A stretch of DNA of 64,000 nucleotides, taken from positions 3,806,956 to 3,870,955 of the forward strand of contig CP143429.1 of assembly GCA_039636775.1 (NCBI GenBank). Direction: 5' to 3'. Origin of the DNA: Micrococcaceae bacterium Sec5.8. GTDB lineage: Bacteria > Actinomycetota > Actinomycetes > Actinomycetales > Micrococcaceae. This document shows positions 12,227 to 60,190 of the stretch, in pieces. The translations under genes were made by a program, and so were the position numbers. How positions within the stretch are numbered: the first letter of the stretch is position 1; every line of letters starts with the position of its first letter. Under the pieces are notes generated by a model, which was not told the origin of the DNA, ran no database searches, and worked only from the letters and a program-made list of their open reading frames with translations.

Positions 12227-12235
12227 TGTGGATAA
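12227..12235 (-). promoter_or_regulatory. DnaA box (perfect)
   Basis: TGTGGATAA, the exact reverse complement of the consensus TTATCCACA, about 300 bases upstream of the dnaB start. Confidence 0.65.
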
Positions 12236-12281
12236 GCTGTGCACTACTGCCGTCAGCTTGTGCACAGCCTGTGGGAACAGC

Positions 12282-12290
12282 TGTGGATAG
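12282..12290 (-). promoter_or_regulatory. DnaA box-like site, one mismatch
   Basis: TGTGGATAG, one mismatch to consensus, 55 bases from the perfect box at 12227 and in the same orientation. Confidence 0.45.
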
Positions 12291-12525
12291 AAAGTTTCTT
12301 GGGCCCCCGGCAGCCCCCTGACCTGCGAAAACAATGGATCTGCCGTGTGGACACAAAAGAATTTCGGGCCGCCGTCGTCCACAGACCGCAGCCATGGCCT
12401 GGGGATAGCGGCCGGACCATGAGGCCATACCCGGGCCGGAATATGCGAATTTAGTGATGTTCCCCACAAATATTCCGGTGGAAAGCCGCCGCCGCCGACC
12501 CGCTCATGCCCGGCGCAGAATGTGC

Positions 12526-12534
12526 TGTGGATAA
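12526..12534 (-). promoter_or_regulatory. DnaA box at the promoter of the membrane-protein pair
   Basis: A perfect TGTGGATAA ends 25 bases before the ATG at 12560. If the transcript is leaderless (TATGCT -10 at 12548-12553), this box covers roughly -34 to -26, where DnaA would compete with RNA polymerase. Confidence 0.6.
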
Positions 12535-53199: not shown

Positions 53200-53526
53200 A
53201 TGAGCAACGCCAAAGAAGTAACAGACGCTAGCTTCAGCACCGACGTGCTGGCATCGGACAAGCCGGTCATCGTGGACTTCTGGGCCGAGTGGTGCGGCCC
53301 GTGCCGCAAACTCGGACCGATTCTCGATGAAATCTCCGTGGAATACAGTGAGAAAGTCGACGTCGTCAAGGTAAACGTTGATGACAATCCCGCTATTGCG
53401 GCCCAGTATGGAATCACGTCGATTCCGGCGGTCTACCTGTTTCAGGGCGGAGAGGTGAAGGGCACAGTCATCGGCGCGCGGCCCAAGCAGTACTTCGAAA
53501 AAGAGTTCGCCGACGTCTTGTCCTAG
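53200..53526 (+). CDS. trxA: Thioredoxin
   Basis: 108 residues with the active site FWAEWCGPCRK (C32, C35) and the cis-proline region SIPAVYLF. Reduces disulfides in the cytosol with electrons from TrxB. A start at the ATG 53200 has GAGAAAG ahead. It is the last gene before a 4.3-kb stretch without genes. Confidence 0.96.
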   Translation: MSNAKEVTDASFSTDVLASDKPVIVDFWAEWCGPCRKLGPILDEISVEYSEKVDVVKVNVDDNPAIAAQYGITSIPAVYLFQGGEVKGTVIGARPKQYFEKEFADVLS

Positions 53527-53822
53527 TGTTAGCCGCCGGCTTCCGACGCCGGCTATGACCGGATGGCTCCGGCTCGAAAGAGGTGGGGCCGTCCGCGTTT
53601 AAGGGAAACGCTGCAATCCTACAACCCGATCCTACGGGTCCTCGTCACTCTTCCTCAGACAGCCAGTGGCTTGGTCCATCGTCCAATTCGGGTTGTTTTA
53701 GCGGTGTATCTGCAGGACACCCGCTTTCATGCGCTTGCGCTACCCGAACTGCGAAGGCATGAGGTGAGTCCAGGCGCGCACGATGATCCTGTGTGGCCCG
53801 ATGCCCGCTGAGTGGATTCAAT

Positions 53823-53836
53823 GTTTCACGTGAAAC
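53823..53836. promoter_or_regulatory. parS site 1
   Basis: GTTTCACGTGAAAC, perfect palindrome of the ParB-binding consensus. Confidence 0.95.
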
Positions 53837-53906
53837 GGGATATCGAACCCTTTCCCCGAAATTGCGGAAGGGTCCGCCGACACCGTTCCCACAAGACGAC
53901 ACGAAG

Positions 53907-53920
53907 GTTTCACGTGAAAC
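53907..53920. promoter_or_regulatory. parS site 2
   Basis: GTTTCACGTGAAAC, 84 bases from site 1. Confidence 0.95.
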
Positions 53921-54641
53921 AGCGACAGGTCTCCGCTGTCACCGTAGGCAGAAAAGCCATAAGCCCGCAGACTTCCTATGCAACAATCACGGCCAACATG
54001 GGGTGGACCCGGATCTCCGGCAGTCCGGCGGCAGCGACAGAAGGTACCCAGTGGCTGATGTCCTGCCGGCCGTCCATGGCAGCACTCGGACCTACCCCGC
54101 GAAGTCTGGCCCCCTAAAACGGCCTCCTGTGGCACCATTACCCCCGCAGCTTAGCCTTCTGCCTGCGATTGGAAGGACGTAGAAGCGTAGCGATTTTCGC
54201 CGTGATCACCTACATAATCTCCTTCAGCCTAAAGCTACGCCCACGGCCCCGGCATACGCCACACCATAATTCAGAGTCAGTTTGACCGGGCGCCAACGGG
54301 CGTATCACAAGGAACTACTACCGCGGTCCTCATGATGCCCGGCCGACGGGTCCTCGGCCGGCGTGGTGTCAGCTCCAAGGTTGCACCTACTAGCTACGGT
54401 CACTTTCGGAAAGCGCCACGCACCACGGCTGCTAACGGATTGCGCTGAACTCTCGTCACACTATGTGGCGGGACGGACGTTCAACCGACAACTCCGCTGG
54501 ATGCCTAGGTCTAGTGGGTGCCTGCACGCCTCGTCTGCCGGATATACCAGGTCCAGGACCGGAGACTCCGCGCAGTCCCGAGGCAGCGACGCAGATAATA
54601 GGGCGCAGACACCTGCCCATCCAGGGAGTCGGCATCCTTAT

Positions 54642-54655
54642 GTTTCACGTGAAAC
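54642..54655. promoter_or_regulatory. parS site 3
   Basis: GTTTCACGTGAAAC, flanked by AT and AT, extending the palindrome. Confidence 0.95.
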
Positions 54656-54763
54656 ATGGTGCCTCCGCCGGTGTAAATCCGGGCGCCGCCGGAGTGCAGC
54701 TGACTGGAAATTCTGAGGGTCAGAATTAAACGGCATGCACGGCACCGACTTCCGCCATTCCAT

Positions 54764-54777
54764 GTTTCACGTGAAAC
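54764..54777. promoter_or_regulatory. parS site 4
   Basis: GTTTCACGTGAAAC, 122 bases from site 3. Confidence 0.95.
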
Positions 54778-55720
54778 ACCGCATCCCCATCACCAACGTA
54801 CGGCCGGATCAACATCCGTCTTGATCCCGCCGGTACCAGTCCCATCCGGAGGCTGTGCCCGCGACCTGGAAAGGAGCCCTACGCGCACCGATCAGGCGGG
54901 CCTGCCTACCACTCTGCCCGGAAAGGCCGACCAGCAAAGTATGCATCCAGCCAAAACTGCGCCACTGAGGGCGTGCGCCCGTAGAAGATACGGGTTGACC
55001 GTGGGCACCTGACCACTTCCTGTCCGGGCACCTTCCGACTCCGCCCTCTCGTCCACAGTGCGCAAACCCGAGGCTGCTGTGCCACGGATCCGGCGTGGAC
55101 AGCATGAGCATCAACGCCGCAAGCCTCCACCCGCACCGCTCTGGCCGCCACAGCAGCCCCACTGGGCGCTCAAGAGTCGGCCTAAGGGCCCGGAACTGTC
55201 TCGGATCTCCATGAGAGTCATACGAGGGCTCCTGGTATGCACCCGTACCGTCCCACCTTGGCTCGGCAGTGGACTGAACGCAACAGCATCAGTCCAAGCG
55301 ATCCTTGACAAGCGCGACGATCACGGACCCGCGTGTCGCCATCTATGGGCTCTCTCAGCCCCTAATGGCGGACACGCGGCTTCAGCACACATATGGGAAG
55401 CCGGGCAGTTGAGTCGTGCATTCCGGCATCGCACGAGGCCAGTCGTGGGTAGAACAGTCTCGGCCCAAGATCTTAGTGAAACAGGCCGGGCGGCATCGGG
55501 GAACCAGGTGACCACCGACCTTTCGTTCTGTACCGAACACGGACTGGTCTTCGCCCAGCTCCAGCAAGTCATGGCGCGGGACCGTCAGCGAGCTCCGATG
55601 AGCGCATCTGAAGCGACTTCACCGCTGCCCAGTACTGCGCTCTGAGGTCATCTTCTCCTGGACGACCGAGGGGCCGCCCATGGATATATTGGCTATTTCC
55701 TGTCCGGGTTTTACACATGG

Positions 55721-55729
55721 TTTTCCACA
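55721..55729 (+). promoter_or_regulatory. DnaA box-like site in the gene desert
   Basis: TTTTCCACA, one mismatch from TTATCCACA, between parS sites 4 and 5. Confidence 0.4.
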
Positions 55730-55982
55730 GGCAACAACCGCGGCTGCTGACACTTTGTACGAGCTATACCCTGATCTCAGTAGGTCCGCGGGCGTGCTCG
55801 CAGAACGGCAGATCGCTCCCGTTCGTCATCGTGACGCACAAGCATTCGAGATAGTGGAGATTGACCCCGCCGAGCTGGTGTGGCGCCAAGAGGCAGCTTC
55901 GAGGTGACCAATTAACCGAAATGGGTGGCTATATTGGGTCCAGCCAGCTGCCAGCCGATATGGAACCAGTAGGTCGTTGCAT

Positions 55983-55996
55983 GTTTCACGTGAAAC
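55983..55996. promoter_or_regulatory. parS site 5
   Basis: GTTTCACGTGAAAC inside an extended palindrome ATGTTTCACGTGAAACAT. Confidence 0.95.
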
Positions 55997-56106
55997 ATAC
56001 CGGCGAATTTTGCCAACATCAGAATGTTGCGGGCGCAGGGGTAGCCTCCGCGTCTTGGAGTTGAGCGCTACTGGCCGATCACAGCCCAGCGGCACTGGAG
56101 CCAAAC

Positions 56107-56115
56107 TTATCCACA
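56107..56115 (+). promoter_or_regulatory. DnaA box (perfect) in the gene desert
   Basis: TTATCCACA, 111 bases from parS site 5. Confidence 0.55.
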
Positions 56116-57046
56116 ACGATATCCACCGGCTTATCGACGCGCTATTGGGGCACGCTGGCCCCTGACGGCGCCTGGGTATGGTGCCCTGGGACGGTGCACC
56201 GTCCATACCTGAATCTTCACCGAGATCCGCTTTCTCCAACGAAAGCTCCGCCGGCCCGTGAGGCATGCAGTCGGGCCATGACCGACGCTGCTTCCTAGCC
56301 CCGCATCTGCGTGGAGAGGCTAGAGGGCAGATGCCCCGGCTGCTGCCACGGTCCAATCGGAGCGTTGCTCCGTCCCTTAGGTAACGACTTGCCCATACCA
56401 TCCAACTTACGACGACTCTCTCCCCGATGGCGCGTGACAAGTCGAAGGGTTCCTGCGAGGCGTTGCCCCGTCGTAAGGAACCAACGCGCCTGTATTGTGC
56501 CGCTGCATTTTCCGGCTGCAGTAGCCATCCGGTCCGCTGCTTTTGGCAGCGAAGAACGAGACCGGGAGTCAGTCTTCGCCCAGAAGTGATTCGCAGCGAC
56601 TGGCAGAGTCAGGACTTCCTCACACCAGCGCCTGGCGGTATTTGCCGACAGCAACAAGGGGGCCCCGTTGGTTTGTGATCTGACGCAATCGAGCATAGCC
56701 ACTGCATCGACCATGCGGATGTCGGTCTTTGGGGGACCGCAGCCCCCTGCCCGCTAGTCCTGGGCCCGACACAGATGGCCGATACCCGGTCGTTCCAGCG
56801 CAGGTACGAAGTCGACTCCAAAGATCGAAGTGAACCGCTCAATGCCCCCGAGATCCCCATCGACCGCCAGGGCGTCTCCGCGGGCCTAGCCAGCCGGCCC
56901 GGCGCCTCTGCGTACACAAAGCCCCCTCCAGAGCCGCTGCGGCCCTTGGGGGCCCACCAGTACCCAACGTGCCCACGCCGCCGCTCAAGACCCGTGGGCA
57001 GCACCACACATTGAAAATGACACGCCACGAAACCAGCAAGTTCTAT

Positions 57047-57060
57047 GTTTCACGTGAAAC
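57047..57060. promoter_or_regulatory. parS site 6
   Basis: GTTTCACGTGAAAC, first of three sites at intervals of 128 and 137 bases. Confidence 0.95.
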
Positions 57061-57174
57061 GGAAGCATCTCATCACCTGTCACACCGTTCTGTTGCCTGG
57101 CAGAGCCTCCCACCAAACGATTGGACTCCTCAGAACGGGCAGGATGCCCGGCTTTCCCACGCCTCCGTAGCAAG

Positions 57175-57188
57175 GTTTCACGTGAAAC
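57175..57188. promoter_or_regulatory. parS site 7
   Basis: GTTTCACGTGAAAC. Confidence 0.95.
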
Positions 57189-57311
57189 GGCCACGGCGCC
57201 GGTTGCCGTCGACCACCCTGGTCTCCTCCTCACTCACGCCAGAGGGACCGTAACCCTCGAGGGGGGCGCGCGCACAACTAGGATCACTCACCCCGCGGAT
57301 CACGGGGCAAG

Positions 57312-57325
57312 GTTTCACGTGAAAC
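57312..57325. promoter_or_regulatory. parS site 8
   Basis: GTTTCACGTGAAAC. Confidence 0.95.
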
Positions 57326-57796
57326 TTTATGATCATCGGCGAGCAATAGCCATTCCGACAACTGGTCCGGATGATGTCCACGACTAAGAGAAGGAGCCAC
57401 TTGCGCAGGAAACCTGGCCGCACTTCGACCAATTATGGCGGCCGTCCAGTTGCTCTCCACGCCTGAGCCGATCCACTGACATCTTGGATCGAAAGGAACT
57501 GAGCGCCGGGCAATAGGCAATGATTCCAAGCCTGGCGGCAACGACCCAGACGAAAAAGCTACTGGGTGCGTTCTTCCCCGGTTTCGGGGCAAGTTCCGGC
57601 ATCAACGTAGTGGGTAAGCCGCACCGCGATTACCGCCTACCGTCCCGGACTTCCGAAACGGCATTCAGTGGTGGCGGTCCGGAACCCTGGCGGATCAGGA
57701 CGGCGGGAGCCCACCGCTAGACCTGTCGGAATACCAACAGGAAAATTTGGGTCGTACAGCGCGCACGAAGGTACAGCTGACCAAGAACAGAGAAAC

Positions 57797-57810
57797 GTTT
57801 CACGTGAAAC
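57797..57810. promoter_or_regulatory. parS site 9, next to the parB stop
   Basis: GTTTCACGTGAAAC, 22 bases beyond the parB stop codon. Confidence 0.95.
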
Positions 57811-57831
57811 CGTCCCAAGAGCCTCGAAGTT

Positions 57832-59055
57832 TTAGGCGGCCGGTCCGGAGGTGAGTACGTCCATGATGCGGTTGAGATCATCTACGCTGGCGAACTCTAT
57901 GCTGACCCGCCCCTTGCGCGCACCAAGCGAGATCTTAACGTTGGTATCTAGTCGGTCTGACAGTGATGAAGCCAGATAATCCAGGCGTTCGTGCCGCGCG
58001 CCAGGTCGCGGAATGTTGTTCTTCGGGGTTCCAGAAGGATTCTGGTACAGCGTCACTGCCTCTTCCGTCGCGCGGACCGACATGCCCTCAGCAACAATTT
58101 TCTGGGCCAGCCGTTCCATGGCTGCAGCATCCGGTAGCGCCAACAAAGCCCGGGCGTGGCCGGCTGAGATCACTCCGGCTGCAACGCGACGCTGTACGAG
58201 CGGTGGCAGCTTGAGAAGACGGAGGGTGTTGGACACCTGGGGGCGCGATCGCCCAATACGATCGGCCAACTGTTCATGGGTAGTTCCGAAGTCCTCCAGC
58301 AACTGCTGGTACGCCGCAGCTTCTTCGAGCGGGTTCAGTTGACTCCGGTGGAGGTTTTCCAACAACGCATCGCGAAGGAGGTCATCGTCTGTGGTGTCAC
58401 GCACGATCGCGGGAATGGTTTCGAGCCCGGCAGCCTGTACTGCACGCCACCGGCGTTCGCCCATCACGAGCTCATAGGGTTCTCCACCTCCTTCGGTTGA
58501 TGTGCGAACCACAATCGGCTGGAGCACGCCAATTTCACGAACCGAGTGCACCAGCTCAGCCATGTCGTCCTCGTCAAAGACGGAACGCGGCTGCTTCCGA
58601 TTGGGATGGATATCAGAGACAGGGATTTCCGCGAATCGGACTCCCGGGACCTCGACGAGTTCCACGCCACGGTCAACGGGTGGCAGGGGTTCTGCGGGTC
58701 TGTCAGCAGCAGTCCCGGCTTTGGAAGAACTAGCGGGGGATTCGCTCTTGGTCGTCGCAGTTCCACGCCCGGTTGACTTCTTAGCAGAACCACGGGTGGC
58801 GGCCTCCGTTGGGACGGAGGGGCCTTGGTCGGCCTGTGCCTCCGGCGGAACCTGGACCACTTTCACCGCGTCGGCGATGGATGCTTCGAGGGCCTCTTCC
58901 GCGGCGGCGGCTTCGACACCCGCTGTTCGTTTCCGACCTTCAGGAAAGAACAGATCCACGGGACGGGACGGCGCTGCACCGCTGGCGGAAGCCGCAGCAG
59001 AACTTGGAATGAGTGCCCCAAGTCCACGGCCAAGGCCGCGTCGCTTGTCGCTCAT
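57832..59055 (-). CDS. parB: Chromosome partitioning protein ParB
   Basis: 407 residues. A short conserved N-terminus ([17 protein letters not shown]) is followed by ~110 residues of Ala/Ser/Gly-rich linker, then the CTPase domain with GERRWRA (about 199-205), and a helix-turn-helix [17 protein letters not shown] (about 264-280) that recognises parS. A C-terminal dimerisation segment ends the protein. ParB loads at parS and slides as a CTP clamp. It is downstream of parA and faces the gene desert. Confidence 0.95.
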
Positions 59056-59122: not shown

Positions 59123-60190
59123 CTAACGTTCCGCGATTTCAGCTGCGGCTTCAAGGTACGAGAGAGCACCGCTGGATGAGGGGTCGTAGGTCATCACGGT
59201 CTGCTGGTAGCTGGGAGCCTCAGAAATTCGTACAGAACGCGGCACCACGGCGCCCAGGACCTGCCTGGGAAAGTGTTCACGAACTTCTGCTGCCACCTGG
59301 GCTGCAAGGTTGGTGCGGCCGTCATACATGGTCAAGAGAATTGTCGACACTTCCAGATCGGCATTGAGGTGCTTCTGGATCATTTCGATGTTCTTCAACA
59401 ATTGGCTCAGACCCTCCAATGCGTAGTACTCGCACTGGATCGGAATGAGCACCTCACTGGCGGCACAGAACGCATTAACTGTCAGTAGGCCAAGACTAGG
59501 GGGGCAGTCGATGAAGATGTAATCCAGCCGTTCCTCACCGTTTTTCGCCCGCTCTTTGGCATAGACATCGATGGCCCGGCGTAGACGCTGCTCGCGGGCA
59601 ACCAGACTAACCAACTCAATCTCCGCACCTGCAAGGTGAATAGTGGCGGGCGCGCAGATCAATTTGGCAATATCGGGACAGGGAGCCACTACGTCCTGCA
59701 GTGGCACGTCGTTGATGAGGACGTCGTAGATGCTGTCAACGTCGGCATGGTGTTCTATTCCCAGTGCCGTCGATGCATTTCCCTGAGGATCGATATCGAT
59801 GACCAACACGTTCAGGCCCGCGGCAGCCAGCGCCGCGGCGATATTCACGGTGGTGGTTGTCTTACCAACGCCACCCTTCTGGTTCGAGACGGTGAACGTG
59901 CGGGTCTTCTCGGGCTTCGGCAGCTCGCGGCCCAAGAGACGCTCCCGCCGTTTGGTTTCCCGGGCTAGTTCGCGGGCAATGGGGCTGGCATCATCCAGGG
60001 AGTCCAGCACGTTTGCGGCGTTTGCCCCTGGTGTTTCACGTGAAACACCGGCTTTGCCGGTGGATTTAGCAACCGATCCCGTACGATTTCTGGCATTCAC
60101 CGGAGTGGGGGCAGGCGCAACAACGGCCCGTGCGGACCCCAGGGACACAAACGGAGGAATCCGCTGCGTGGAGGCTTCGCTACTGGTCAC
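59123..60190 (-). CDS. parA: Chromosome partitioning ATPase ParA
   Basis: 355 residues, GTG start at 60190. The Walker A deviant KGGVGKTTTT is at about 105-114, so an N-terminal extension of ~100 low-complexity residues precedes the ATPase core; shorter ParAs begin nearer the P-loop. Further ATPase motifs: DIDPQGNAST and FIDCPPSLG. ParA forms ATP-dependent gradients that segregate ParB-parS complexes. A parS site lies within its coding sequence (residues 49-53, VSRET). A later start is possible. Confidence 0.93.
   Translation of the reverse strand: MTSSEASTQRIPPFVSLGSARAVVAPAPTPVNARNRTGSVAKSTGKAGVSRETPGANAANVLDSLDDASPIARELARETKRRERLLGRELPKPEKTRTFTVSNQKGGVGKTTTTVNIAAALAAAGLNVLVIDIDPQGNASTALGIEHHADVDSIYDVLINDVPLQDVVAPCPDIAKLICAPATIHLAGAEIELVSLVAREQRLRRAIDVYAKERAKNGEERLDYIFIDCPPSLGLLTVNAFCAASEVLIPIQCEYYALEGLSQLLKNIEMIQKHLNADLEVSTILLTMYDGRTNLAAQVAAEVREHFPRQVLGAVVPRSVRISEAPSYQQTVMTYDPSSSGALSYLEAAAEIAER
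60033..60046. promoter_or_regulatory. parS site 10, inside parA
   Basis: GTTTCACGTGAAAC within the parA coding sequence, encoding residues 49-53. Confidence 0.95.

Follow-up and report, generated by a model that had tools for sequence, protein, structure and literature searches.

The link between replication and segregation in bacteria is mostly known through proteins, with ParA (Soj) acting on DnaA. As described in PMC7022226, DnaA is acted on or bound by one of the two segregation proteins, ParA or ParB, in Bacillus subtilis, Vibrio cholerae and Deinococcus radiodurans. Clusters of DnaA boxes near the replication origin, oriC, are reported in PMC4585315 to repress untimely initiation in B. 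subtilis and Streptomyces coelicolor. In Corynebacterium glutamicum, according to PMC7083940, ten parS sites lie within 35 kb, nine of them intergenic. The locus considered here is the spacer between trxA and parB in Micrococcaceae bacterium Sec5.8, which is bounded by the stop codons of these two genes (53527-57831, 4,305 bp). It was studied within a stretch of 64,000 nucleotides, referred to as the window, which makes up the final 64 kb of a chromosome of 3.87 Mb that was linearised at dnaA. The window, from a soil bacterium, is Arthrobacter-like; judged by ParA, ParB and GidB, the named relative closest to it is Arthrobacter sp. AL12. The spacer carries nine parS sites and, near its middle, a second conserved component, a pair of DnaA-box arrays, which an earlier sequence-only reading of this DNA had overlooked. 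It is probably a centromere close to the origin in which a control module that binds DnaA is embedded. No account of such a locus was found in a literature search mostly limited to non-subscription papers.

An exact-match scan with the parS sequence GTTTCACGTGAAAC confirmed the nine perfect copies that the sequence-only reading had placed between trxA and parB, and located a tenth at 60033 within parA. Allowing up to two mismatches returned only the same ten sites in the window, against an expectation of 0.12 from 100 shuffles. Since the genome holds ten exact copies in all, every one of them lies in the window. These ten sites cluster, together with parA and parB, within 10.2 kb of the end of the chromosome as linearised at dnaA. 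The role of ParB at this locus is near certain. The spacing of the sites in pairs or a trio, which had also been noted, is not special: spacings of 60-150 bp account for 10.8% over the 97 spacers of the genus comparison below, compared with 11.7% when sites are placed at random. Clear depletion is confined to spacings under 30 bp (0.4% versus 4.3% at random).

The genes on either side converge on the spacer, in which no plausible gene was found. None of its ten open reading frames (ORFs) of at least 100 amino acids has a Pfam match at the cut-off (two are weak, E 0.0098 and 0.024), and a search of the spacer against Rfam gave nothing above the cut-off, with one sub-threshold match at E 0.46. 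The codon-position composition of the spacer is flat, with a longest frame of 260 codons and a G+C content of 0.60 at all three positions. By a codon-position measure, no other part of the window goes as far without coding-like frames (3,582 bp); the next such stretch, at the window edge, is 980 bp. Promoter-like and terminator-like sites are no more frequent than in shuffles, and comparison of the spacer with plasmids gave no match. The suggestion that the spacer holds no insertion element agrees with the lack of any transposase Pfam match above the cut-off in the ten ORFs, terminal repeats not having been searched. A G+C content lower than on both sides had been claimed as well; this stands for the left side (60.6% versus 64.2% over 10 kb) and fails for the right, where the stretch from parB to the window end has 59.6%.

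The comparison across the genus rests on a ParB match in 197 of 198 genomes. One hundred loci were chosen from among these 197, starting with the highest matches in the list and skipping several with ParB near a contig end, and the sample leans to species with a close ParB. Four were dropped as trxA was not found (L165, L172, L177, L190), and the other 96 with the window give 97 spacers; a set of named loci, which partly overlaps the unnamed ones, was not added to these. Spacer length ranges from 3,917 to 9,145 bp, with a median of 5,837 bp. Together the spacers contain 799 exact parS sites: six sites in 7 spacers, seven in 16, eight in 34, nine in 29, ten in 9 and eleven in 2. The number of sites increases with spacer length (Spearman 0.41).

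Coding content is as scarce across the genus as in the window. A coding-like frame of 100 codons is absent from 93 of the 97 spacers. The other four comprise L205 (IS21-like frames) and L228 (IS110), so that at least two hold insertion sequence (IS) genes, together with L216 (238 codons, no Pfam match) and L237 (112 codons, marginal). Conserved coding genes in the interval, a finding that would have spoken against a gene-free platform, were looked for and not found. An unannotated non-coding RNA or small-protein locus is very improbable, given these counts, the lack of an Rfam or Pfam match above the cut-off in the window's spacer, and the neutral pace at which the sequence outside the sites drifts.

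For any two of the 97 spacers, most of the sequence cannot be aligned (median alignable fraction 0, mean 0.008). A DNA search of the 198 genus genomes with the window's spacer matched in full only the window itself; pieces of up to about 47 bp were found in 26 other genomes and include array B and parS flanks. In the reference spacers that were profiled, the blocks that recur are the arrays and the parS sites. Ten close pairs of spacers were aligned, which are not fully independent as they share members (L233 twice; L230, L233 and L256 are related). Outside parS their identity is 58.7-74.7%, compared with 72.1-86.0% at the fourfold sites of parB, and in one of the ten the spacer is marginally above the fourfold sites. 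The spacer therefore drifts about as fast as parB fourfold sites, or faster. In the same pairs 77 of 85 exact parS sites have an exact counterpart at the aligned position, while this holds for 807 of 52,055 other 14-mers (1.6%). With parS retained and the letters of the spacer changing at a near-neutral pace, it follows that the sites are selected and the letters between them hardly so. The gapped fraction of these alignments is small (0.04-0.18), and hence the room between sites changes slowly. This pattern, in which sites are kept against drift and their number and place recur through the genus, lends good support to the idea of a gene-free segment dedicated to ParB loading; parS positions as random as the surrounding sequence were not what the genus revealed.

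The DnaA box emerged as the top word from an unbiased count of 8-10-mers in 26 named spacers after masking of parS. Of the copies of TTATCCACA, 192 are on the trxA-to-parB strand and one is on the opposite strand; they are spread over 96 of the 97 spacers, and shuffles would lead one to expect 0-2. According to PMC4285127 this word is the high-affinity DnaA box of Escherichia coli and B. subtilis, and Streptomyces and Mycobacterium tuberculosis prefer TTGTCCACA. The boxes are organised in two head-to-tail arrays with a 12-bp period, of which B reads TTATCCACAAAGTTATCCACAGcGaTATCCACCG and A is looser. The arrays are 308-400 bp apart, and their pair score, with a relaxed floor, is at least 42 in all 97 spacers on this strand and at most 35 on the other. 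In 92 of the 97 spacers the start of array B has a parS site at a distance of 85-125 bp, which precedes it in 65 and follows it in 27. Of the remaining five, the window (parS 112 bp before B) and, by their box positions, L178 and L251 also fit, L237 has its parS at about -131, and L198 has only a two-mismatch parS. Thirty of 96 spacers have one copy each of the AT-rich motif AAATYAAY between the arrays, and outside that interval all the spacers together have only 10. The boxes form a cluster beyond chance outside oriC, and array B of the window is the sole match in its genome of R1, a model of array B, at E <= 0.001 (6.7e-10). From the box motif, DnaA binding at the arrays is likely. At window positions 12227-12534, the minus strand carries a further group of two exact boxes and one near box in a span of 308 bp.

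Table 1. Positions, in window coordinates, of the parS sites, DnaA-box arrays and bordering genes
Feature	Position	Strand	Remarks
trxA	53200..53526	+	Left border gene, converging on spacer; Pfam Thioredoxin E 4e-30
Gene-free convergent spacer	53527..57831		4,305 bp, 60.6% G+C
parS 1	53823..53836	+	Exact match
parS 2	53907..53920	+	Exact match
parS 3	54642..54655	+	Exact match
parS 4	54764..54777	+	Exact match
Putative DnaA-box array A	55709..55731	+	Two diverged boxes 12 bp apart, TTTTACACA and TTTTCCACA; weaker than in most relatives
AT-rich motif AATTAACC	55910..55917	+	AAATYAAY; between arrays, 185 bp before array B
parS 5	55983..55996	+	Exact match; central site, preceding array B (first slot 56095) by 112 bp
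Putative DnaA-box array B	56107..56139	+	Exact TTATCCACA 56107-56115, diverged boxes at 56119 and 56131
parS 6	57047..57060	+	Exact match
parS 7	57175..57188	+	Exact match
parS 8	57312..57325	+	Exact match
parS 9	57797..57810	+	Exact match; 21 bp past parB stop
parB	57832..59055	-	Right border gene, converging on spacer; Pfam HTH_ParB E 1.6e-35, ParB_N E 2.6e-35
parA	59123..60190	-	Pfam AAA_31 E 8.3e-56
parS 10	60033..60046	+	Exact match; within parA

It could be argued that the locus is a plain parS cluster in a neutral spacer, with DnaA boxes that are leftovers or serve minor regulation. In its favour are the wider occurrence of parS-bearing spacers than of arrays in the family, and the account in PMC8357415 that parS clusters within 5-40 kb are usual in bacteria. 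However, the DnaA boxes are the most conserved element after parS, with all 21 exact boxes retained in the ten close pairs, and they stand on one strand only and at fixed distances in 97 of 97 spacers. This explanation is accordingly unlikely.

The arrays map to one clade, core Arthrobacter with Sinomonas. Among the named loci, the carriers are the trxA-parB spacers of core Arthrobacter, Pseudarthrobacter, Paenarthrobacter and Sinomonas. Scoring covered the spacer or its available part and included L044, whose contig ends early; in a tree of ParA, ParB and GidB with 81 rows, the carriers and L044 form one group of 26 rows (support 92). Arrays were not found in A. koreensis, A. gandavensis, A. 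pullicola, L052, L053 (2.3 kb examined) or L058, nor in the examined loci of Glutamicibacter, Kocuria, Rothia and Psychromicrobium. Cellulomonas-type gaps contain genes and have no exact parS in the gap. A search with R1 of 149 genomes of the order gave matches in 31, and the strong ones of the genus are at the trxA-parB locus. Other matches lie elsewhere, for example in G289, G109 and G310, and array-like sites may occur outside the genus. Under stricter filters, R1 had no match in one of four genus genomes and in seven of seven other family genomes drawn. On the trxA side of the gap of L058, short repeats around AACAATTGTCCGC were observed, which may represent a different array in a species without the usual ones.

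The origin of the room between trxA and parB had been ascribed to decay of a cwlM gene. A cwlM-like gene is indeed usual beside trxA in some relatives (L051, L056, L071), and none of the 25 genus genomes searched has it, bar one weak 59-residue domain match. In A. koreensis and A. gandavensis, however, such a gene sits between trxA and the parS-bearing spacer; in A. koreensis the gap of 4.8 kb has six parS sites and its first 1.2 kb is the cwlM-like gene (two PG_binding_1 domains and Amidase_3). Gene and parS spacer thus coexist in these species. The loss of cwlM from the genus is real and is not shown to be the source of the spacer. A remnant of cwlM was sought in the 97 spacers and none was found (best E 0.67), and the longest open frames are at about the level of shuffles (median 225 versus 209 codons). 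Decayed genes at the cwlM position that merely happen to carry parS are therefore a scarcely credible explanation.

Two DnaA-box arrays around an AT-rich motif have an origin-like layout, and the module they form could be seen as a second or cryptic replication origin. In addition, the AT maximum of the A-B intervals (median 0.60 over 40 bp in 97 spacers) exceeds that of 1,075 other stretches of the same spacers (0.55). Nevertheless, boxes are also present in the dnaA-dnaN spacer, together with a stronger, conserved AT-rich stretch (0.70-0.725 over 40 bp), in seven of seven genomes examined. GC skew is -0.036 on either side of the module and does not change sign (68 spacers), a weak test because the skew is faint in this genome. 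A replication origin at the module is thus improbable, and oriC most likely stays between dnaA and dnaN. A separate DnaA-box cluster was noted about 17 kb to the right of dnaA in G000 (C1:17231-17881, L121), with five exact boxes in both orientations, and a dense cluster of DnaA boxes is found at 16.7-19.5 kb in seven of seven genomes examined.

Forty-three of the 97 spacers also have a parS site no more than 40 bp from the parB stop. Of these 43 sites, 36 form the centre of an extended perfect inverted repeat, with at least five further pairs, as do 17 of the 756 other parS sites. In 34 of the 36 extended sites, at least four of the next eight bases on the parB strand are T. The extended parS next to parB has the shape of a putative intrinsic terminator built round parS. 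The parB-proximal site of the window (57797-57810) is without the inverted-repeat extension.

The preferred reading, a centromere with an embedded DnaA-binding module, would work as follows. The spacer would be a centromere-like locus, gene-free and between converging transcripts, with all but one of the exact parS sites of the genome. From known ParB biology, ParB would load at parS as clamps dependent on cytidine triphosphate (CTP) and slide or spread over promoter-free DNA. Transcription or other bound proteins are thought to disturb ParB spreading, as stated in PMC5815017, and a gene-free segment may therefore be favoured. Selection would act on the parS sites, on how many there are and, roughly, on the room that separates them, leaving most bases of the spacer free to drift. 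DnaA would form cooperative filaments on the arrays, and the module may serve as an origin-proximal control site which titrates or inactivates DnaA, like the box clusters of B. subtilis and Streptomyces or like datA. Lying inside the ParB domain, it would allow initiation control and segregation state to affect each other. It is on this arrangement that we infer a regulatory role for the module and its coupling to segregation; DnaA may be the regulator, the regulated partner or both, which sequence cannot tell.

A number of points weigh against this interpretation. One parS is enough for chromosome architecture in C. glutamicum, as reported in PMC7083940, and nine sites may therefore be redundant. 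The identification of DnaA is indirect, through box motif and orientation, and array A of the window is itself weak. IS elements in some spacers (L205, L228) indicate that insertions are tolerated. Psychromicrobium, which is near the core clade, has a gap of 57-93 bp with one parS. Relatives such as A. koreensis and L058 have long parS-bearing spacers without arrays, and the module is therefore not needed for the platform.

A bolder variant, that of a bifunctional locus in which DnaA filaments and the ParB-parS complex about 100 bp away act as one regulated unit, is possible and rather doubtful. ParB loading or ParA arrival would then directly set DnaA activity or, alternatively, DnaA would gate the loading of ParB and SMC at the central parS. 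The centromere spacer would in this case be selected for room and not for sequence.

If the centromere reading with its DnaA module is true, a single cis locus carries ParB and DnaA sites at fixed spacing, and the link between replication and segregation could be tested by small deletions. Sites for ParB and putatively for DnaA have been conserved through a large genus while nearly all other bases changed. The locus also offers a clean natural gene-free bacterial centromere, in which a neutral background allows the number and spacing of the sites to be assessed.

In comparison with known systems, the locus resembles that of C. glutamicum, as described in PMC7083940, in having several identical parS sites near oriC, mostly outside genes and beside parAB. 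It differs in that nine of them lie in one convergent gene-free spacer of 4.3 kb (3.9-9.1 kb in the genus), which drifts freely between the sites and holds the DnaA-box arrays. Similar to the B. subtilis and S. coelicolor clusters reported in PMC4585315, DnaA boxes are found near but outside oriC. In this case they are in two unidirectional arrays of 12-bp period at a fixed distance, each set beside a parS inside the putative centromere. The E. coli datA and DARS regions (PMC4585315), compared by description only, are likewise non-coding, conserved DnaA-box control regions; unlike these, the module here is inside a centromere. With oriC of its own genome, between dnaA and dnaN, the module shares the box type, the arrayed boxes and an AT-rich stretch, whereas its AT maximum is lower, it has no GC-skew switch and it lies far from dnaA-dnaN.

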